Shown here piece after piece: positions 5,203-26,738 of a stretch of 38,971 nt of DNA. This DNA comes from Sphingobacteriales bacterium (lineage in GTDB: Bacteria; Bacteroidota; Bacteroidia; UKL13-3). Location: assembly GCA_021298155.1 (NCBI GenBank), contig JAJTEN010000018.1:1-38971 (forward strand). The letters are read 5' to 3'. The notes under the pieces are model-generated. The model was given only the letters and a program-made list of their open reading frames with translations. It ran no database searches and was not told where the DNA came from. The stretch's first letter is position 1; every line of letters starts with the position of its first letter. The position numbers and the translations under genes are program-made.

Positions 5203-6477
5203 TTAGGTTTTTTGTTTCTTTTTTTGAGCTGAGGGAAACAAAACATTATTTAAAATCAACCTGTAACCAGGTGAATTTGGGTGAAGATTTAGATCTGTTG
5301 GAGGTTCGCCTACTTGGTGCTGATAATCCTCTGGATCATGTCCGCCATAGAATGTCCATGTTCCTTTTCCAACTGTACCATGTATATAACGGGCTTCATT
5401 TAGAGATTTGTTTTCACCCAAAACAAGTACATCACTTTTTATGAAAGGCCTTCTAAACGCAGTTGTTTGACCCCAAAAGCCCTTTACAGTATTGGTATGA
5501 TTTTGATTTAACATAGCAGGCAGCATATCCCATTTAGCACTAAATTCAAATAAAGTAAAAACATCATTATCCTCTGTAACTGGCCTTGTTCCTTGCATGG
5601 CGTCTATATAACTATGCTCATAAACCATTGGATCATAGTATAGTTTATAATCTTTAAAGGCAAAACCCTTACTAAAATCTAATTTTTTATCCGCCCCCCA
5701 ATCGGCCGCATCACCATCAAAAACCTGCTCCACAATATCAAATCCATCTGCAGCCAGAGCAATATCATAGGTATCGGTTGCGCTGCACATGGCAAACATA
5801 AAACCTCCACCAATTACATAATCCCTTATTTTTTTGGCAACGGCGAGTTTCAATTCCGACACTTTAGAGAAGCCATGTTTTGCCGCCATCGCTTCATTTT
5901 CTTTTACCTCTGCCTGGTACCATGCGGCACGAGAAAAATTGGAGTAAAATTTCCCAAATTGCCCAGTAAAATCTTCATGATGCACATGCAACCAATCATA
6001 TAAACTTAATTTACCTGTAAGCAATTCATCATCATAAACCACATCATATGGAATTTCGGCATAGGTTAAAACTAATGTAACGGCATCATCCCAAGGCTGT
6101 TTAGTTTTTGGTGAATAAACTGCAATTTTAGGAGCTTTTAACAAACGTACCATTTCCATATTTACATCGGGCTTGGCTATTTCTGTAAGGATTTCGCTTA
6201 CCTGGCCCTCGCTAATTATCTCGTAACTAATGCCCCTTATTTTACATTCCTTTTCAATTAAATCTGCATAGGCAATCATAAAACTACCACCTCGATAATT
6301 AAGCAACCAATTTACTTCCAAATCTTTTTTAAGCACCCAATAAGATAATCCATAGGCTTTCAAATGGTTTTTCTGAGTAGCATCCATGGGAATTAATAAA
6401 CGAATAGCATTTGCATGTAATGTGAATAAACTCACAAAAACCAAAATGAACTTAGCTCTTTTCATTTTCTTATTCAT
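5203..6477 (-). CDS. Secreted GATase1-like protein, often mislabelled asparagine synthetase B
   Basis: A 424-residue exported protein. MKRAKFILVFVSLFTLHANA looks like a signal peptide cleaved near residue 24. I place the start at the ATG that overlaps the DUF2520 stop by eight bases; an ATG four codons later is equally good. From about residue 115 the protein resembles a class I glutamine-amidotransferase-like fold. Cys231 lies in GGGFMFAMCSATDTYD, like a nucleophile elbow, and His380 in TFYGGHDPED. Similar Bacteroidota proteins often carry the database name asparagine synthetase B, but I see no N-terminal Cys nucleophile and no SGGxDS pyrophosphatase loop. The true activity is unknown. Confidence 0.7.
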   Translation of the reverse strand: MNKKMKRAKFILVFVSLFTLHANAIRLLIPMDATQKNHLKAYGLSYWVLKKDLEVNWLLNYRGGSFMIAYADLIEKECKIRGISYEIISEGQVSEILTEIAKPDVNMEMVRLLKAPKIAVYSPKTKQPWDDAVTLVLTYAEIPYDVVYDDELLTGKLSLYDWLHVHHEDFTGQFGKFYSNFSRAAWYQAEVKENEAMAAKHGFSKVSELKLAVAKKIRDYVIGGGFMFAMCSATDTYDIALAADGFDIVEQVFDGDAADWGADKKLDFSKGFAFKDYKLYYDPMVYEHSYIDAMQGTRPVTEDNDVFTLFEFSAKWDMLPAMLNQNHTNTVKGFWGQTTAFRRPFIKSDVLVLGENKSLNEARYIHGTVGKGTWTFYGGHDPEDYQHQVGEPPTDLNLHPNSPGYRLILNNVLFPSAQKKKQKT

Positions 6478-7243
6478 TACTATTATCTTTATGTTCAATA
6501 ATACTCCGGCTTAAAACATCATAAATATGTAACAGTGGTAAATTTTCTGCTAATGCTTTTTTATGCATATCAATCGTAGCTATATCATTTCTTATGGCTG
6601 GGCCGGTTTGGGCATAACGCGGCTCCATATAATTTATTTTGTTTACCGTTTCTTCGATGAGTGGCTTAAGCAAATCAAAAGAAATTGATTTAGATTCTAA
6701 AAATGCGGCGGCCAGCGCAAATAAATGGTTTGAAAAATTATTTACCAAAACAGCGGCTAAATGTAAACTTTGTCTTTGATCTTGAGTTACAATTTGCACC
6801 TTCCTACTTATTCTATCTGCCAAGGCCTCTAAAATTCTACTATCTTCCTCTGAACTGGCTTCAATACAAATTGGAATATTTTTAAAATCAACCATATTGT
6901 TTTCACTAAAGCTTTGTATTGGCCAAAATGAACCATAATGGGTGTGGTTTTGTAAAACACTTATGGGCATCATTCCAGAGCAATGAACAAGCAAACCATG
7001 CACCTTTACCTGTTCACTAATGAGCTTTATAACCTGATCAGAAACAGTCAAAAAATACACGTCGCACTGCGCAGGAATCTTAGATAGATCTGAATAAGCT
7101 GGTATTTGATATTTCGCAGCAAATGAATTTACCTTGGCTATATCTCTCCCATAAACACCTGCTATTTGAACATCTGTTTTTAGAAAGGCCTGAACCAAAT
7201 GATGGGCTATTTTTCCATTGCCAATAATAAAAACACTAAGCAT
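6470..7243 (-). CDS. Rossmann-like and DUF2520 domain protein
   Basis: A 257-residue protein. It begins with an NAD(P)-binding Rossmann fold, MLSVFIIGNGKIAHHLVQAF, with the GNGKIA dinucleotide loop at 8-13 and a second-strand end at VYGRD. The C-terminal half (about 125-250) is a helical DUF2520 domain, with QSLHLAAVLVNNFSNHLFALA as its typical helix. It resembles short 3-hydroxyisobutyrate or pyrroline-carboxylate reductase-like enzymes, but the substrate is unknown. It is the first gene of a pair with the secreted GATase1-like protein, whose start overlaps its stop. Confidence 0.83.
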   Translation of the reverse strand: MLSVFIIGNGKIAHHLVQAFLKTDVQIAGVYGRDIAKVNSFAAKYQIPAYSDLSKIPAQCDVYFLTVSDQVIKLISEQVKVHGLLVHCSGMMPISVLQNHTHYGSFWPIQSFSENNMVDFKNIPICIEASSEEDSRILEALADRISRKVQIVTQDQRQSLHLAAVLVNNFSNHLFALAAAFLESKSISFDLLKPLIEETVNKINYMEPRYAQTGPAIRNDIATIDMHKKALAENLPLLHIYDVLSRSIIEHKDNSNE

Positions 7244-7261
7244 TGTTGTTTCCTTTCATTC

Positions 7262-7291
7262 TTGCCAAATATACTTATTTTAGTACTTTCG
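7262..7291 (+). promoter_or_regulatory. Candidate promoter of the TSP3/OmpA-like gene
   Basis: TTG (7262-7264), 19 bp, TACTTTCG (7284-7291), one mismatch from TAnnTTTG. The perfect palindrome TTCGTACGAA (7288-7297) overlaps the -7 and start region and could be an operator. Confidence 0.38.
7266..7273 (-). promoter_or_regulatory. Candidate -7 element for the DUF2520 gene
   Basis: TATATTTG on the minus strand, 22 bp before the DUF2520 start. It interleaves with the divergent plus-strand promoter. The expected -33 position reads TTC rather than TTG. Confidence 0.3.
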
Positions 7292-7309
7292 TACGAACCA
7301 AATTTTAAC

Positions 7310-8200
7310 ATGAAATTTCTTTTTACCTATATCTTCCTTTTAACCATCTCTACAGGCCTATTTGCTCAAATAAAAGAAAAAAATAAGTCTAGGATCGAAT
7401 TAAGAGATAGTGACCAAGATGGTGTGATAGATAGTAAAGATAATTGTCCAGAAACGCCACCAAACACCATCGTTGATTCTTTTGGATGTGTGAGTAAAAC
7501 AGTAAATCAGTTAGATTCTGACAAAGATGGTATTCCAGATTATCAAGATTCTTGTGCCCAATTACCAGGCATTGCAAACCTACAAGGTTGTCCAGATTAT
7601 GATGGTGATGGAATAGCTGATCCATTCGATAAATGTCCGAAACAGGCAGGAACAATTGCATTAGCAGGTTGTCCAGATAGAGACAATGATGGTATTTCAG
7701 ATGAAGATGATAAATGTCCAGATGCTTTTGGACTTTCCTACCTATCCGGCTGCATGGATAGTGATGGTGATCAAATTGCAGACCAATTAGACGATTGTCC
7801 GAACCGCCAAGGTAAGTTATCTAACAAAGGTTGTCCGGAAATAGATAAAGAACTGAGCAAAATTTTGTTAGAAGCTCAAGTGGCCATACAATTTAGCCCA
7901 GGTAGCTCAAAAATTTCAAGCAAGTCGAGTGTATTTATGCAAAAATTGATTGAGGTTATGCAGAAAAACCAGGATATGAAATTCAGTATTTATTGCTTTA
8001 CCCAAGAAAGCAAAGTCACAAGTAAAAATGACGAATTGGCAATGAATAGAGCTGCAGAAATTGAAGCTTTTTTAATTTCGAAAGGTGTATACTCAAAAAG
8101 ACTGTCATTTAAATCATATCATAAATCTGACAGAACTTTAACGCCAATAAAAGGAATAAATAATCAAACCATTATTGAACCTAAATTCATTAACCCCTAG
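7310..8200 (+). CDS. Thrombospondin type 3 repeat and OmpA-like envelope protein
   Basis: A 296-residue exported protein. The start is the ATG of MKFLFTYIFLLTISTGLFAQ, a clear signal peptide; an upstream frame extension lacks signal features and overlaps the divergent gene. Residues about 30-175 hold five calcium-binding TSP3-type units (DSDQDG, DSDKDG, DYDGDG, DRDNDG, DSDGDQ), each followed by a CP or CV/CA element. The C-terminal 110 residues resemble an OmpA peptidoglycan-binding domain, with IQFSPGSSKIS and NDELAMNRAAEIEAFLISKG. It has no beta-barrel, so it is probably a periplasmic linker between the outer membrane and the wall. Confidence 0.82.
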   Translation: MKFLFTYIFLLTISTGLFAQIKEKNKSRIELRDSDQDGVIDSKDNCPETPPNTIVDSFGCVSKTVNQLDSDKDGIPDYQDSCAQLPGIANLQGCPDYDGDGIADPFDKCPKQAGTIALAGCPDRDNDGISDEDDKCPDAFGLSYLSGCMDSDGDQIADQLDDCPNRQGKLSNKGCPEIDKELSKILLEAQVAIQFSPGSSKISSKSSVFMQKLIEVMQKNQDMKFSIYCFTQESKVTSKNDELAMNRAAEIEAFLISKGVYSKRLSFKSYHKSDRTLTPIKGINNQTIIEPKFINP

Positions 8201-14257: not shown

Positions 14258-15049
14258 TCAGACGATTAATTCAAAGCTATCTGCGTCTAAGCCAACGGGG
14301 AAACTTTCCCTATAGCTTTCAATTTCAGATTTATTTAAAGTAAAAGTCTGACAAACAGCTGCTTCTTTTGCATCAAAAATTAATTCACCAGAAGCGCTAA
14401 TGATGCAAGAAGCTCCATTGTGCATCATTCCGGAAGCATCTTCTCCAATTCGATTAACAGCAACTACAAAAGATTGGTTTTCTATAGCCCTTGCTACGGT
14501 TAATGCTTTCCAATGAGCAATTCTGCGCGCTGGCCAATTGGCTACAAAAAGCAATAGATCATAATCAAAAGTAGGCTTACGTCTGATCCAAACAGGAAAA
14601 CGTAAGTCGTAACAAATAAATGGGGCTATTTTCCAACCTAAATAATTGATTATTAACCGATTGTTCCCTTTGGTGTAAAACAGATGCTCCTCTCCCATTC
14701 TAAACAAATGAGCTTTGTCGTAATACTGCGTATTAGGTATAGGTTCGAACCAAAAAAAACGATTGAAGTATTGATTATTTTCTTTAACCATTAAACTTCC
14801 ACAAACGGCAGCCCCGGTTAAAGTGCTCCATTGTTGCATTTTTTGTTGCGCTATGCCATGCATTTCCTCTGCAAATAAGTTTGCACGCATACTAAAACCG
14901 GTACTAAACATTTCTGGCAAAATGATCACATCGGTTTTGCCGGCCAAATTTGGAATAATAGTATCTAAATAATCTAGATTGGCGGCACAGCTCTCCCAAA
15001 CAATACCATCTTGTATTATACTTACGCGTAAATCATTTTTATTCTCCAT
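14258..15049 (-). CDS. Nitrilase-superfamily amidase (YafV/omega-amidase type)
   Basis: A 263-residue carbon-nitrogen hydrolase, cytoplasmic. The catalytic triad is Glu46 (ILPEMFSTGFSM), Lys112 (YYDKAHLFRMGEE) and Cys146 (APFICYDLRFPVW). These motifs closely follow YafV and the mammalian Nit2 omega-amidase, which hydrolyse 2-oxoglutaramate and 2-oxosuccinamate. The start codon overlaps the end of the sirtuin gene by 11 bases, so the two are translated from one message. Omega-amidase is the best guess, but substrate was not tested. Confidence 0.9.
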   Translation of the reverse strand: MENKNDLRVSIIQDGIVWESCAANLDYLDTIIPNLAGKTDVIILPEMFSTGFSMRANLFAEEMHGIAQQKMQQWSTLTGAAVCGSLMVKENNQYFNRFFWFEPIPNTQYYDKAHLFRMGEEHLFYTKGNNRLIINYLGWKIAPFICYDLRFPVWIRRKPTFDYDLLLFVANWPARRIAHWKALTVARAIENQSFVVAVNRIGEDASGMMHNGASCIISASGELIFDAKEAAVCQTFTLNKSEIESYRESFPVGLDADSFELIV

Positions 15050-20147: not shown

Positions 20148-20729
20148 TTACTTTTTACCTTCCCAATTCAAAGTTTCTATTAATCGAAGCATATCTGCTT
20201 TTAAAAATTTTAATACAGGCGCAATTGAATCTTGATTGGTTCGAGTATTAAAATAGAGTGATCCCCTCAAAAAATGTTGTGTACTATCAGTCACATAAAA
20301 TTGAGCATTAGTAGCTGTGCTGCCATCTAATTCATAATATATTCCATGATAATTAGGCTTATTAATATAGTTTTCAATTATTTGATCGGCACGCATAACG
20401 TGTTTAAAAACCATTTCACGGGAGTCGTTTAAAAGCTTAAATAAATCAGCCCTATTTTTAATTGTTCGATAACTTAAATGTAAGGTAGCTCCAAAAGGTT
20501 TATAATAGATATTGTACCAACATTCTTCCGCGGCTGGATAAGGATCGGCTTTTACCATCCCATATTTGGGAAGTTCAAAACTATAATGGCAAGCATCCAA
20601 ATAAAATCTGTCATACTCCTTATTTGGGTAATCAATTCTTTGAAACCCCCTTGGTCTGGGTGTAGTTTGATTTTCTGATGAACAAGATACAAGAACAATA
20701 AAAGAAATTAGAATAGTAAAGCTGCGCAT
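20148..20729 (-). CDS. gldD: Gliding motility lipoprotein GldD
   Basis: A 193-residue lipoprotein essential for gliding and type IX secretion in related species. I start it at the ATG of MRSFTILISFIVLVSC, one base after the gldE stop; lipidation is predicted at Cys16. A TTG five codons upstream would lie inside gldE. Family sequence is clear: PRGFQRIDYPNKEYDRF, then WYNIYYKPFGATLHLSYR, and the C-terminal DSIAPVLKFLKADMLRLIETL. Its place directly after gldE is the conserved Bacteroidota order. Confidence 0.93.
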   Translation of the reverse strand: MRSFTILISFIVLVSCSSENQTTPRPRGFQRIDYPNKEYDRFYLDACHYSFELPKYGMVKADPYPAAEECWYNIYYKPFGATLHLSYRTIKNRADLFKLLNDSREMVFKHVMRADQIIENYINKPNYHGIYYELDGSTATNAQFYVTDSTQHFLRGSLYFNTRTNQDSIAPVLKFLKADMLRLIETLNWEGKK

Positions 20730-20730
20730 A

Positions 20731-22062
20731 TTACATTGGATCAAAACTAACTTTTACACGTTTTATTTTTCTTGAATCAACCGACTCAATGGTAAAGGTA
20801 TAGTTTTTAAACCGGATTTCCTGACCCAGTTTGGGTAAAAGTGAATTAATTTCCAACAACATTCCACCCAAAGTTTCAGCATCATTTCTGATTTCTTCAA
20901 AATCATTGACAGGAACATCCATATACTTGCACAAATCGTTGATTAGCATTTTACCTTCGAACACAAAAGTATGATCATTGATGCGGGTATATACATGTTC
21001 ATCTTCATCAAACTCATCTTGTATTTCACCAAATATCTCCTCCATGATATCCTCCATACTAACCAAACCACTTGTTCCTCCAAATTCATCTACAACAATG
21101 GCAATGTGCATACGTTTGGTTTGAAACTCCTTTAGTAAATCATCAATTTTTTTACTTTCAGGAACAAAATAGGCTGGTCGAACCAACTGATGCCAGCTAA
21201 AATGTACATTTTCATTTAAGAAGGGAAGTAAATCTTTGGTAAACAATACACCCTTAACATTATCGAGATTATCTTCGAAAACTGGAACCCTACTGTAACC
21301 AGAATCTATAATGTGTACCATGAGCTCATTAAAATCTATATTTTGATCTACACCTACGATATCTGGCCTTTGTCGCATTATCTGTTTCACGTTGGTATTA
21401 CCGAAGTTCACAACACTTTTAAGCATATTTTTTTCTTGCTTGGGAGCATCCTTCTCAGAAGTAATTTCAATGGCATGCGTGAGTTCATCTACAGACAAAA
21501 CATGGCCTTTTTTTGTGATACGCTTATCAATTAAAGAAGTACTTTGTTCAAGAACATAAACAAGAGGTTGAAACAATTTATAGCTGTAAAGTAAAGGCAC
21601 TGCAACTATTCTGGCAATTTTCACATTATTTTGAGTAGCATAAATTTTCGGAACAACTTCCCCAAATAAAACTATAACAAAAGTTACAATTACAACCTCA
21701 ATTAGAAAGCCCAATATTGGATAGGATTCAAAATTAAAGAGAAGTGCAAAAAACAATGTAGATAATAAAACAATAGCTATATTAACGAAAGTGTTGGCAA
21801 TAAGGATTGTGGCCAATAATTTTTTGGGGTATCTCATTAAAAAATGAACTGCATTAGCATTGGCGTTTTGGGCTTCAACCAAATACTCTAACTGCAATTT
21901 TGTAAGCGAGAATAATGCATTTTCCGCTCCTGAATATGCTGCGGAAAGAAAAACTAAAACAATTAAACTAATTAGATAAAATAAAATTCCTATTGAATCT
22001 GCAGTGCTAATTTCTGGATTAAATAGTTGTAATAATATATTACCGGGAGGAGGTTCGTCCAT
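20731..22062 (-). CDS. gldE: Gliding motility-associated protein GldE (CNNM/CorC-like, CBS domains)
   Basis: A 443-residue inner-membrane protein. About 20-180 is a DUF21/CNNM membrane domain with hydrophobic segments near 21-43, 84-106 and 113-134. About 215-335 is a pair of CBS domains (VKQIMRQRPDIVGVDQNIDFNELM; IVVDEFGGTSGLVSMEDIMEEI). The C-terminal 80 residues form a CorC_HlyC transporter-associated domain. It is related to magnesium and cobalt efflux proteins; in Flavobacterium it supports GldD in gliding. It is followed after one base by gldD and preceded by ssb and mutY. Confidence 0.93.
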   Translation of the reverse strand: MDEPPPGNILLQLFNPEISTADSIGILFYLISLIVLVFLSAAYSGAENALFSLTKLQLEYLVEAQNANANAVHFLMRYPKKLLATILIANTFVNIAIVLLSTLFFALLFNFESYPILGFLIEVVIVTFVIVLFGEVVPKIYATQNNVKIARIVAVPLLYSYKLFQPLVYVLEQSTSLIDKRITKKGHVLSVDELTHAIEITSEKDAPKQEKNMLKSVVNFGNTNVKQIMRQRPDIVGVDQNIDFNELMVHIIDSGYSRVPVFEDNLDNVKGVLFTKDLLPFLNENVHFSWHQLVRPAYFVPESKKIDDLLKEFQTKRMHIAIVVDEFGGTSGLVSMEDIMEEIFGEIQDEFDEDEHVYTRINDHTFVFEGKMLINDLCKYMDVPVNDFEEIRNDAETLGGMLLEINSLLPKLGQEIRFKNYTFTIESVDSRKIKRVKVSFDPM

Positions 22063-22087
22063 TGTTAATTTTAGTATGATTAAGAAG

Positions 22088-22121
22088 CAAAAATAAACAT
22101 AATGGAGTACAAATGAAACAA
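22088..22121 (-). promoter_or_regulatory. Candidate gldE promoter
   Basis: TATTTTTG on the minus strand (22095-22088), with TTG 23 bp further upstream (22121-22119). The spacing is slightly long. It lies in the 114-bp gap between ssb and gldE and predicts a leader of about 20 nt. Confidence 0.35.
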
Positions 22122-22176
22122 TTTAATGAAGGAATTTCTCCACTTTTAAACATCTTGACAGTTATTAAGCATACAC

Positions 22177-22542
22177 TTACTGCTTTTCTTCCTGACTTTT
22201 GTGTGTACCCAATAGTTGGATTTGATTGGCTTTAATAATTTTTCTTTGATGTTCTATGCCAGATTTATCTCGGTAATTTTCAGATTTAATTCTACCTTCT
22301 ACATAGACTTGAATTCCCTTACCAAATTTGCCAGAAATAGCCAATTGATCAATATTTCTAGCTAGATTATCCCATACTTCAATTTGATGCCATTCAGTTT
22401 CAATCTTTTTTTGACCGTCTTTTCCGGTAAAATATTCATTTGTAGCGATAGAAAAATGGGCCACCACCCTATTATTTTCGAGGTATTTTACTTTAGGATC
22501 TTGACCTAAATTTCCGATAAGCATTACTTTGTTCAACGACAT
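22177..22542 (-). CDS. ssb: Single-stranded DNA-binding protein without the acidic tail
   Basis: A 121-residue OB-fold protein with the SSB signature MSLNKVMLIGNLGQDPKVKY, then WHQIEVWDNLARN and VYVEGRIKSENYRD. It binds single-stranded DNA during replication and repair. The C-terminus is HKSQEEKQ rather than the acidic tip ending DDLPF that recruits partner proteins. I checked the other frames past the stop and found no displaced tail. It is therefore either a short paralogue or a tail-less version. It sits between mutY and gldE. Confidence 0.93.
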   Translation of the reverse strand: MSLNKVMLIGNLGQDPKVKYLENNRVVAHFSIATNEYFTGKDGQKKIETEWHQIEVWDNLARNIDQLAISGKFGKGIQVYVEGRIKSENYRDKSGIEHQRKIIKANQIQLLGTHKSQEEKQ

Positions 22543-22552
22543 ATTCTCATCA

Positions 22553-22560
22553 CAAATGTA
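22553..22560 (-). promoter_or_regulatory. Candidate -7 element for ssb
   Basis: TACATTTG on the minus strand, an exact TAnnTTTG 10 bp before the ssb start. There is no TTG at the proper spacing upstream. It lies just past the repaired mutY stop codon. Confidence 0.3.
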
Positions 22561-22572
22561 ATTGAATATTCT

Positions 22573-23624
22573 TTATTTTGGTTCAGCCAAGGCAATATCT
22601 AAATATATTTGTAATAACCTTGATACACCTAATTGCGGCAAATTGACCTTTTGAATCCAGGTTTCATCAAATTGTAAAAAGGGTTTTCTTTTGCAATGGA
22701 TAAGAAAAAATTGAGCATAGATATGTTGATGCGTTAATAGGTGCTTTTTTCAAAGACCATTTCAATTTCTTCATGAGAAGAAATCCATTTTTTGTCAATT
22801 GCCTGTTTGATCCTATCCGATGATTCCATTAACTCTTCAGATTCTATATACGGAAGATCGTATAAACCCTCCCAAATACCACCTTTTGGTCGGCGAAAAA
22901 CAGCAATTTGAGAATTGAATTGAAAATGAAAATAGGCAATATATCTATTTTTAGGTTTTACCTTTGCTAATTTAACTGGATATTGAACCTGTGTTCCTTG
23001 CATAAAAGCAAGGCAATTCGATTGAAGCGGACAATCTACACATGCTGGTTTTTTAGGTGTACAAATTAAGGCGCCTAATTCCATCATCGCTTGATTGTGA
23101 GTGGCCGGATTTTCTTTATTTAAAAATTCATTGGCTAATTCACTAAACAATTTTTTAGCAAAACCTGTATTTATGGGTTCAGAAATCAAATAAAAACGAG
23201 ACAAAACCCTAAAAACATTACCATCTAAAACAGCAATTGGCTCATTAAAGGCAAAGCTGGCGATGGCAGCGGCTGTATATGGACCAATTCCTTTAAGTTT
23301 GAGAAGATCTGAATAATTATCAGGAAATTTGCCCGCATGATTGGAAACAATATCTTGGGCCGATTTGAGCATATTTCTACCTCTGCTGTAATAGCCCAAT
23401 CCCTGCCAAAGTTTAAGAACCTCATCCTCTGGAGCACATGCGAGGAGCTCAATTTGTGGATATTTCTGTGAAAATTTTAAAAAATAAGGCAAACCCTGAT
23501 TAACCCGAGTTTGCTGTAAAATAATTTCGGAAAGCCATATTAGATAAGGGTTATGCGTCTTTCGCCAAGGTAAATCGCGCTTATTTGATTCATACCATAA
23601 ATGAAGACTTTGCTGGCTATTCAT
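22573..23624 (-). CDS. mutY: Adenine DNA glycosylase MutY, interrupted by a one-base frameshift
   Basis: MutY removes adenine opposite 8-oxoguanine. The N-terminal catalytic part is intact: Glu33 in LSEIILQQTRV, the helix-hairpin-helix GIGPYTAAAIASF, catalytic Asp134 in AVLDGNVFRV, and the iron-sulfur cysteines 188, 195, 198 and 204. As read, the frame stops at 22734 after VFEKSTY. The -1 frame continues KHLLTHQHIYAQFF and on to the end of the NUDIX-like 8-oxoG recognition domain, stopping at 22573-22575. Adding one A to the A6 run (22745-22750) gives a normal 350-residue protein. The start is the ATG of MNSQQSLHLWYE rather than a TTG four codons upstream. Confidence 0.92.
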
Positions 23625-23686
23625 ATCTTTTCGCAAGAAAAATGAAATATTTTATAAAAAAAACACCTTTTTTCAGTTCTAATGCA

Positions 23687-23694
23687 TACATTTG
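23687..23694 (+). promoter_or_regulatory. Candidate -7 element of the HU operon promoter
   Basis: TACATTTG, an exact TAnnTTTG. The -33 position is T-rich (CCTTTTTTC) but lacks a clean TTG. It predicts a leader of about 60 nt before the HU start. Confidence 0.38.
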
Positions 23695-23761
23695 CAACCC
23701 CTTACAAATGGGCTTGTAAAATAAAAAACAACAATATTCAATCATATAATACAGATTAACA

Positions 23762-24103
23762 ATGACTAAAGCAGAAATTATCCAGGAGATTTCACTAAAA
23801 ACAGGTGTAGAGAAAAATCAAGTTCAAGAGGTTGTAGAATCATTTTTTAAAGTGGTAAGAAACAACATGACAGAAGGAAAAAATGTTTACTTCCGTGGAT
23901 TTGGTTCATTTATCATTAAAAGACGTGCAAAGAAAATTGCGCGTAACATTTCTAAAAACACTGCCATGGTTATTGATGAGCATTACATCCCATCATTTAA
24001 GCCAGCTAAGACTTTTGTTGAGAAAATCAAGAAAAGCGAAATGGTTAAAGCTAATGCAGCTAAAAGAGAAGCTGAAGATAAATTAGCCTCAAAAGAAGCT
24101 TAA
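23762..24103 (+). CDS. HU/IHF-family DNA-binding protein
   Basis: A 113-residue nucleoid protein. MTKAEIIQEISLKTGVEKNQVQEVVESFF forms the dimerisation helices, GKNVYFRGFGSFIIKRRAKK the core, and ARNISKNTAMVIDEHYIPSFKPAK the DNA-binding arm and closing strand. A 20-residue Lys/Ala/Glu-rich tail (SEMVKANAAKREAEDKLASK) extends beyond a minimal HU. Its stop TAA overlaps the ATG of the TPR gene as TAATG, so translation is coupled. It is first in a probable HU, TPR, small-peptide transcript. Confidence 0.95.
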   Translation: MTKAEIIQEISLKTGVEKNQVQEVVESFFKVVRNNMTEGKNVYFRGFGSFIIKRRAKKIARNISKNTAMVIDEHYIPSFKPAKTFVEKIKKSEMVKANAAKREAEDKLASKEA

Positions 24104-24945
24104 TGCAATTTAACAAAGCTCAAATAATTATCATTGGCGTCCTTCTGGGATTAGTGGGTATTTTAGTTTATCTAAACTATAAATCTGCCACTCCAGATAT
24201 ATTGCCAGCACCGGCTACGGGAGTAAATACTGCTCCCCGTAGCTTTGATTTTGATGCATATTTGAGTTCGTTAAAAGATTCACTAGATGCTGAAACATGG
24301 GAATATGTTAAACTTCAAACAGAAGCGGCAAACCAGAGTGAAGCAAGAATCTATGAAATTGCCACAATTTCTAATACTTGGGATTCCCTTGGCTTTAAAT
24401 TAGCTGGAGCGCATTACTTTGCCAAAATGGCCAACAGGTTAAATGATGAAAATTCATGGTTTAACGCAGGAATGAAGTTTTACGATTTTGCAGCTACATG
24501 CCAAGATACAGCTATCCAAATATATGCAAGCAAAGAGGCAATAGTTGCATTTGAAAAAGTAATTGCTTTGAATGAAAACAACATTGAAGCAAAAAATGCA
24601 CTGGCAATATGTTACATCCAAAACGATTTAGACATCATGAAAGGTGTTCAACTCCTTAAAGATGTTACACGCAGAGACTCAAATAATGTAGACGCAAATT
24701 ACACATTAGGGATGTTATCGATGCGCAGCGGCCAATACGACAAAGCATGTGAAAGATTTAAAACACTCGTTCGTGTTCAGCCAATGTCGGCCGAGTTTCA
24801 TTATTATTTGGGAGAATCCTACAGTCAGTTAGGTAAAAAGATGGATGCAATAAAATCCTTTGAAACATTTAAAGGATTGGTTCCAGATGAAAAAGCAAAA
24901 AAAGATATAGAGTCAATTATTAATAACCTTAAAAATTCTAATTAA
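24103..24945 (+). CDS. Membrane-anchored TPR-repeat protein
   Basis: A 280-residue protein. One membrane segment (about 7-25, AQIIIIGVLLGLVGILVYL) anchors it, probably with the rest in the periplasm. Tetratricopeptide units fill the C-terminal half: AIVAFEKVIALNENNIEAKNALAICYIQ, VDANYTLGMLSMRSGQYDKACERFKTLVRVQP and AEFHYYLGESYSQLGKKMDAIKSFETFKGLVP each fall in the 34-residue pattern. The gene shares one base with HU and lies one base before the 29-residue peptide gene. The role is not known; TPR domains usually mediate protein contacts. Confidence 0.85.
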   Translation: MQFNKAQIIIIGVLLGLVGILVYLNYKSATPDILPAPATGVNTAPRSFDFDAYLSSLKDSLDAETWEYVKLQTEAANQSEARIYEIATISNTWDSLGFKLAGAHYFAKMANRLNDENSWFNAGMKFYDFAATCQDTAIQIYASKEAIVAFEKVIALNENNIEAKNALAICYIQNDLDIMKGVQLLKDVTRRDSNNVDANYTLGMLSMRSGQYDKACERFKTLVRVQPMSAEFHYYLGESYSQLGKKMDAIKSFETFKGLVPDEKAKKDIESIINNLKNSN

Positions 24946-24946
24946 A

Positions 24947-25036
24947 ATGCCAAGCGGTAAAAAAAGAAAGCGTCATAAGATCGCAACCCACAAACGCAAG
25001 AAACGTCTTCGTAAGAACAGACACAAAAAGAAGTAG
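24947..25036 (+). CDS. 29-residue Lys/Arg-rich peptide (AURKAIP1/COX24, mS38-like)
   Basis: The gene begins one base after the TPR stop and encodes a 29-residue peptide starting MPSGKKRKRHK and ending KNRHKKK. Seventeen residues are Lys or Arg and three are His. The pattern (KKRKRHK, then THKRKKRLRKNRHKKK) matches the very short Bacteroidota proteins labelled AURKAIP1/COX24 domain, related to the mitochondrial small-subunit protein mS38. A ribosome-associated role is inferred from that family. The gene has the usual A-rich start and sits upstream of RNase G, an order I regard as common in this phylum. Confidence 0.8.
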   Translation: MPSGKKRKRHKIATHKRKKRLRKNRHKKK

Positions 25037-25042
25037 TGTTTA

Positions 25043-25087
25043 AATAGAAAGAGAAGTAAGTTTAAGTTCCTTACTTCTTTTTCTATT
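25043..25087 (+). other. Long hairpin after the small-peptide gene
   Basis: AATAGAAAGAGAAGTAAG (25043-25060) pairs with CTTACTTCTTTTTCTATT (25070-25087), 18 bp with one wobble and a 9-nt loop. It could end the HU-TPR-peptide transcript or protect its 3' end. No separate T-run follows it, so ordinary intrinsic termination is uncertain. Confidence 0.75.
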
Positions 25088-25138
25088 ATAACTCAAATTA
25101 CTCATTAAGTTATTCTCATTTTCGCCCTCCCTCACATT

Positions 25139-25178
25139 GCGTTTAAAATATCCAATTTTAAACGCCTAATTTTTTTTT
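25139..25178 (+). terminator. Hairpin plus T9 directly before the RNase G start
   Basis: GCGTTTAAAAT (25139-25149), loop ATCCA, and ATTTTAAACGC (25155-25165) form a perfect 11-bp stem. CTAA and nine Ts (25170-25178) follow, then the GTG start at 25182. It looks like an intrinsic terminator or an attenuator. If it lies within the leader it would affect translation. Confidence 0.55.
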
Positions 25179-25181
25179 AAA

Positions 25182-26738
25182 GTGAATTACGAATTAATAA
25201 TCAATTCAAGCCCTTCGGGAGGGGTAGATATTGCCATACTGAAAGATAAGAAGCTCATTGAACTGCATCATGAACAAGCAGATTCTAATTTTCAGGTAGG
25301 TGATGTTTATTTAGGAACAGTAGGCAAAATTATGCCAGGCTTAAACGCTGGTTTTATAGATGTTGGGCATGAGAAAGATGCTTTTCTTCATTATCTCGAT
25401 TTAGGTCCACAATTTGAATCTACACAAAAATTTACACGCATGCTCCGCAGCAGTAGGCCAAAGGATTTTGGAATCTACCCTACTCATCTTGAGCCAGATA
25501 TAAACAAAGGCGGTAAAATAACAGATATTCTTAAGCGAAACCAACAAGTGTTGGTGCAAATTAGTAAAGAACCTATTTCAAATAAGGGTCCACGATTAAC
25601 ATCTGAGCTCTCCTTAGCCGGTAGATTTTTAGTCATGATGCCCTTTGAAAAGTCTGTTAGCATTTCAAAAAAAATAGTAAAACAAGAAGAACGTAAACGT
25701 TTAAAAGAGGCTGTAAATGCTATAAAACCTGAAAACTTTGGTGTCATTATCAGAACAAATGCCGAAGGTGAAAGCATAGACGATTTGCAGAAAGACTTGA
25801 AAGATTTAATGGGCAAATGGCAAGAATTATGCAGACAATTAATGGAAGCCAGCTCTCCACAAAAAGTATTGGGCGATAACGACAGAACCTTAACCTTGGT
25901 GAGGGATTTGGTTAATGAAAATTATACCAACATTCAAATAAACGACAATTTCTTATTCAACAAAATAAAATCATACCTTAAAAGTAAATCCCCAGAATTA
26001 GAAAATATAGTAAAATTATATACTGGTAAAACACCCATATTTGAGCATTTTGGGGTAGAAAAACAAATTAAAACGAGCTTTGGAAAAGAGGTAAACTTTA
26101 TGGGAGGTTGTTACCTCATCATAGAGCATACAGAAGCATTGCACGTTATTGATGTAAATAGCGGAAATACTGCAAATAAAGGAAGCAACCAAGAAGAAAA
26201 CGCCCTCAAAGTGAATATGGAAGCGGTTGAGGAAATAGCGCGACAATTACGTTTGCGTGATATTGGGGGCATTATTGTAATAGATTTAATAGATCTGAAA
26301 ACAGCTGGCAACAGAAAATTAGTTTATGAAAAACTAAAAGAGGTAATGAAAACCGACCGCGCCAAGCATAAGATTTTACCAATGAGTCCGTTCGGACTCA
26401 TACAAATAACCCGACAAAGAGTGCGACCAGAAATGGCCGTGGTAACGAATGAAAAGTGTCCAACTTGTCTTGGAAGTGGAGAAATTCAATCGAGTGTTAG
26501 CATTGTAGACGATATAGATAGTCATGTTAAATATTTAATAGAAAACCTACATCTTAAAGGATTTACCATTGAAGTACATCCGTTTTTAGCTGCTTATTTA
26601 AAAAATGGATGGTTAAATTCATGCAGATTTAATTGGTTTTGGAAATATAAACAATGGATTAAAGTTATCCCTAATTCTAGGTTGCATTTAGTAGATTATA
26701 AATTTATGGATGCAAAAGGTGAAGAAGTAATATTATAA
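25182..26738 (+). CDS. rng: Ribonuclease G/E family endoribonuclease
   Basis: A 518-residue single-strand endoribonuclease involved in rRNA maturation and mRNA decay. An S1 RNA-binding domain occupies about 37-125 (GDVYLGTVGKIMPGLNAGFIDVG). The DNase I-like catalytic part has Asp324 (HVIDVNSGN) and Asp368 (IVIDLIDLKTAGNRK), which hold magnesium. The zinc-link is C426-x2-C429 (CPTCLGSGEIQ). The start is GTG; the coding frame matches family N-termini (ELIINSSPSGGVDIAIL). There is no E. coli RNase E-like scaffold tail. A hairpin and T-run end three bases before the start codon. Confidence 0.95.
   Translation: MNYELIINSSPSGGVDIAILKDKKLIELHHEQADSNFQVGDVYLGTVGKIMPGLNAGFIDVGHEKDAFLHYLDLGPQFESTQKFTRMLRSSRPKDFGIYPTHLEPDINKGGKITDILKRNQQVLVQISKEPISNKGPRLTSELSLAGRFLVMMPFEKSVSISKKIVKQEERKRLKEAVNAIKPENFGVIIRTNAEGESIDDLQKDLKDLMGKWQELCRQLMEASSPQKVLGDNDRTLTLVRDLVNENYTNIQINDNFLFNKIKSYLKSKSPELENIVKLYTGKTPIFEHFGVEKQIKTSFGKEVNFMGGCYLIIEHTEALHVIDVNSGNTANKGSNQEENALKVNMEAVEEIARQLRLRDIGGIIVIDLIDLKTAGNRKLVYEKLKEVMKTDRAKHKILPMSPFGLIQITRQRVRPEMAVVTNEKCPTCLGSGEIQSSVSIVDDIDSHVKYLIENLHLKGFTIEVHPFLAAYLKNGWLNSCRFNWFWKYKQWIKVIPNSRLHLVDYKFMDAKGEEVIL

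Follow-up and report, generated by a model that had tools for sequence, protein, structure and literature searches.

How should a mutY gene be read when its frame is lost at a short run of A and the end of its protein continues in another frame? In the window, which is the whole stretch of 38,971 nucleotides analyzed here, the broken gene runs overall from 23624 to 22573 on the minus strand (Table 1). We find that its break is an ordinary singleton frameshift and not a new mechanism, the two main readings, an error of the assembled sequence and a very recent mutation, both being ordinary.

Table 1. Features of the mutY locus, in window positions.
Feature	Position	Strand	Evidence
mutY main frame, ending ahead of the premature stop	22737..23624	-	ATG at 23624-23622; TIGR01084 and HhH-GPD matches
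A6 run, site of frame loss	22745..22750	-	read in DNA
Premature in-frame TAA of the mutY main frame	22734..22736	-	read in DNA
Rest of the MutY C-terminal domain, -1 frame, 58 codons + TAA	22573..22749	-	homology, hhalign
ssb, next gene downstream of mutY, full open frame	22177..22542	-	TIGR00621, 113.6 bits, cut-off 53.95

The earlier note on this sequence had placed the loss of frame, by a single base, at the A6 run, and this proved correct to the base (22750-22745); the stop of the main frame and the uninterrupted -1 frame down to 22573-22575 that it described are both seen in the DNA. Past the run, the codons of the main frame are out of register with MutY until the premature TAA, and the -1 frame stays open up to the TAA at 22575-22573, translating as KKHLLTHQHIYAQFFLIHCKRKPFLQFDETWIQKVNLPQLGVSRLLQIYLDIALAEPK before that stop. 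Since 230 of 20,000 base shuffles of this far piece also remained open, an open frame is in itself modest evidence, and what decides the matter is the homology of the far piece. Against an alignment of MutY from 20 relatives, taken from 28 proteins with coordinates at the 29 loci read, hhalign gave a probability of 98.5 (E 3.8e-15), with a reported identity of 62% over 53 columns. The MutY of the nearest relative has 350 residues, of which 1-293 fall on the first piece and 293-350 on the second, so that the two pieces are consecutive and a full length of 350 fits, in agreement with the proposal that one extra A would give a MutY of that size.

The piece before the break is identified as MutY by TIGR01084 (324.8 bits versus a cut-off of 286.5), matches HhH-GPD with 61.3 bits (cut-off 26.2), also exceeds the cut-off of HHH, and carries the cysteines C-X6-C-X2-C-X5-C, which we take to be the 4Fe-4S motif of the enzyme. 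The C-terminal 8-oxoG-recognition domain lies in a single frame with the catalytic domain at all 29 relatives' loci read, and here it is divided between two frames. Before the break, NUDIX_4 is matched in part (profile positions 5-41 of 113, 22.1 bits, below the cut-off of 35), a second match covering positions 5-72 (25.2 bits) extends through the premature stop, and the intact relative L004 scores 52.9 bits against the same cut-off. The recognition domain is thus not wholly intact beyond the break, as had been proposed, because the break falls inside this NUDIX-like domain; what does lie beyond it is the part with the 8-oxoG loop.

To place that loop, the profile of the relatives was aligned with Geobacillus MutY (PDB 6q0c/6u7t) over positions 3-336 of 348, and its segment ekkhiLshqkifakfy falls on SFEHAFSHLVWQLTVF of that chain, which makes L-T-H in the far piece the counterpart of the F-S-H loop. 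Only two codons separate L-T-H from the codon that absorbs the end of the A run. This gene thus resembles Geobacillus MutY and the TIGR01084 family in its HhH-GPD domain, four cysteines, NUDIX-like domain and loop aligned to F-S-H, and differs from them in that its C-terminal domain is cut by the frame break. Judged from its domains, the short product would retain the glycosylase domain without the loop that, according to a passage in PMC10993402, reads 8-oxoG. The same paper, in its section 8, describes E. coli MutY lacking the C-terminal domain as active in vitro, though it favors 8-oxoG:A less strongly, and reports that the mutation frequency in cells rises 500-fold.

The break is private to this genome, as the alignment of mutY from close relatives suggested in the earlier note reveals. 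Besides this genome, the genus is represented by 18 genomes; a mutY match (E 1e-30 or better) is present in 16, and every one of the 16 is a single open frame of 350-402 codons, so that neither the same break nor the further decay that would have marked a shared pseudogene occurs in any of them. The other two, G001 and G017, have weaker matches below the mutY cut-off and were left out before the counts; G001 is rated 97% complete, and the lack of a MutY-level match in the two may be a true absence or an assembly gap. In the wider kinship, 38 of 40 relatives have a MutY-level match and none of the 38 has a stop inside it, the odd open frames being one of 157 codons at a contig end (G036) and one of 638 codons (G032). 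At the site itself, the A run is A7 in the nearest relative, L004, and A8 in L006 and L016, and the longest run is at most five in the remaining 26 of the 29 loci read. The tract is therefore not kept: a run of at least six A is reached by 3 of 16 same-genus relatives, and by none of the 13 other loci read.

An old pseudogene is ruled out by the far piece, where conserved columns are kept and dN is below dS. Compared with the reference genome G006, the far piece has dN 0.28 and dS 1.245, and the part of the C-terminal domain before the break has 0.231 and 1.906; between G006 and a second reference, G004, dN is 0.445 and dS 2.862 past the site, with dN 0.53 and dS 3.515 ahead of it. The dN/dS of the far piece is about 0.22, a rough ratio, as all are here, since dS is saturated (above 1). 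All eight columns conserved in relatives are retained. Of the far-piece columns at which the window and G006 differ, 13 set the window apart from the other relatives and 7 set G006 apart, with 1 tie; the corresponding counts are 8, 14 and 2 for the stretch of the C-terminal domain that precedes the break and 20, 15 and 3 for the catalytic domain. By a two-sided binomial test (13 of 20), this lean of the far piece toward faster change does not reach significance (about 0.26). The absence of decay downstream that had been claimed thus holds broadly, although the window is somewhat more often the divergent sequence. That slight excess of lineage changes, also expected under loosened selection, speaks for a recent mutation and against an assembly error, whereas the retained columns and the low ratio leave no trace of age.

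To see how often such breaks occur in the assembly, 1,097,038 bases of the same genome, window included, were compared with the open reading frames of G006 (400,000 bases) and G004 (794,944 bases). A first pass, taking the best subject per reference, gave 431 comparisons over 362 distinct stretches and 408,242 bases, of which the share beyond the window amounts to 328 coding stretches with 372,815 bases. None of these 328 stretches has a single-base break, and 175 of 200 simulated single-base deletions were detected, which rules out a general homopolymer fault of the assembly. The mutY break is the sole single-base break seen in the compared stretches, which hold 1,061 A/T runs of at least six, the mutY run included (758 of six, 303 of seven or more). 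The first pass flagged six entries, namely mutY twice, L156, L165, L177 and L190, and when all subjects were included in a second pass (453 comparisons), seven were flagged, the previous six and L210, with no further single-base break.

Four of the flagged genes carry longer out-of-frame deletions, of about 25 bases in L210 (about position 5590), 40 in L156 (1150-1400), 55 in L165 (2650-2900) and 82 in L177 (18850-19100). Both sides of each deletion still match relatives, with a protein identity of about 55-61% for L210 and 89-96% for the others, and the deletions may be assembly errors, mixed strains or real. The relative of L165 is an M13-family peptidase; L156 and L210 share a single G006 gene as their relative, with no NCBIfam or Pfam match. 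The L190 entry, near 14665, is a false frame break, being a leader mismatch upstream of a nearer ATG. In the reverse direction, with the genome's own open reading frames set against relatives, G004 has, at places where our genome is open, a small frame break (L219, 2650-3000) and larger deletions (L212, 18300-18750); comparisons of G006 with G004 gave no breaks in 69 and 71 cases in the two directions.

From these data we give about even chances to the reading that mutY is intact and ordinary in the living cell, and that the break is a mistake in the assembled sequence, local and isolated. The consensus would hold the wrong length of a short A run, and the cell would make the usual two-domain MutY, whose C-terminal loop finds 8-oxoG:A and which removes the A. 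This reading is favored by the privacy of the break, with mutY open in all same-genus relatives that have it and the C-terminal part in frame at every locus read, by the homology and retained columns of the far frame, and by the four other genes with deletions, which may be assembly errors but may equally be real or reflect mixed strains. A survey of frame transitions with GeneTack (PMC3711429) expects singletons validated by BLASTp to stem from sequencing error and not from true indels, and our case resembles those singletons in being a homology-supported frame transition in one genome only. Counting against an assembly error is the scarcity of single-base breaks in this genome's assembly, with none in the 328 stretches outside the window. 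What is observed is the break itself, that no relative shares it, that the far piece is homologous and not clearly decayed, and that a recoding signal is absent; that the break is an error is inferred, and appears slightly more likely than a very recent real mutation. The gene should not be annotated from the consensus, without the reads, as a lost MutY or as a case of recoding.

It is a serious possibility, to which we assign somewhat less than an even chance, that replication slippage has very recently caused a real loss of frame in the strain sampled, or in some members of its population. Because the truncated MutY keeps the catalytic domain without the 8-oxoG loop, such a strain would be expected to act as a mutator of the G:C to T:A type, in line with the effect of removing the C-terminal domain in E. 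coli. If the break is real, this would be a natural mutator strain, in a genus without a detectable MutM domain, that could be tracked in its habitat through counts of run length. The lack of a general homopolymer fault fits this reading, and the A7 and A8 runs of relatives make slippage at the site plausible. A precedent is found in H. pylori, where, according to part of a review (PMC8875331), slipped-strand frameshifts in a homonucleotide tract of mutY raise the mutation rate about 26-fold. On the other side, besides the missing trace of age, the mutS and mutL matches of the genome contain no internal stop, and hence nothing points to a defect in mismatch repair of the kind that favors slippage.

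The loss of MutY could also be costly in this genus. The Fpg/MutM domain PF01149 was found in none of its 19 genomes by a search that was positive in 8 of 14 controls and likewise negative in a Bacteroides control, and OGG_N was found in one of the 19 (G018, 25.2 bits over a cut-off of 23), with a stop inside. On this search of PF01149 and OGG_N in 19 genomes, the usual glycosylases for 8-oxoG:C may be missing from the genus, and it is from this that we infer a cost of losing MutY, which weighs against a recent mutation. A second mutY as a backup was rejected, as the sole other match in the genome (26% identical) is an endonuclease III by TIGR01083 (238.8 bits versus a cut-off of 211.7).

A reversible mutator switch, in which slipped-strand changes in the length of the A run turn the full MutY off and on within the population, is very unlikely. 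The run does vary, from six A in the window to seven and eight in the three relatives named above, and the H. pylori case, in which mutY is likewise interrupted by a change in homopolymer length, offers a precedent (Huang et al. 2006, as cited in the part of PMC8875331 concerned). There, however, an effect on mutation rate was reported, while here we have one sequence and a short run in a tract that is not visibly kept, and no further single-base break turned up in the coding bases compared, which include 303 A/T runs of at least seven. We hold it equally improbable that, in a Bacteroidia population of a genus without a detectable MutM domain, slippage always sustains a recurrent and reversible mutator subset whose MutY lacks its 8-oxoG-reading end.

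Programmed -1 frameshifting by tandem slippage usually takes place at an X XXY YYZ heptamer. At the A6 run the zero-frame codons are GAA AAA AGC, and no such heptamer was found there in phase; the AAA in the P site (lysine tRNA) could re-pair one base back, but the A-site codon cannot. The RNA from 22760 to 22660 folds with -11.9 kcal/mol (z -1.43), and 18 of 200 shuffles were as good, which is not significant. The homology of the frame beyond the break would suit recoding, and slippage is described in PMC3017870 as rescuing frameshifted genes in insect endosymbionts, which have many tracts of at least nine. Efficient slippage of RNA polymerase in vivo is likewise described, in a passage of PMC5009743, at a run of nine, against six here; as the break occurs in one genome only and at a run of six, these precedents do not fit. 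Functional recoding, in which the ribosome or RNA polymerase would slip on the A run and yield some full-length MutY beside the short form, is the least probable reading of all, relatives having no need of it with their mutY in one frame (16/16). Among the three readings of the earlier note, a sequencing indel and a recent mutator mutation survive, and the ribosomal slip, with no shared break, usual heptamer or significant fold, is unsupported.

As for the surroundings, mutY is followed downstream by ssb, then gldE and gldD, and an IHF/HU-like gene lies divergently upstream. Within window positions 20148-26738, one strand carries the order gldD, gldE, ssb, mutY, and the opposite strand carries the IHF/HU-like gene, a TPR protein and a ribonuclease of the Rne/Rng family. 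Elsewhere in the window, an apparent frame break at 7185-7304 is false and corresponds to the 5' leader of an OmpA-like gene; the listed start of that gene at 7199 (window 7199-8200) is probably too early, as that frame contains, farther along, the signal-peptide-like MKFLFTYIFLL.
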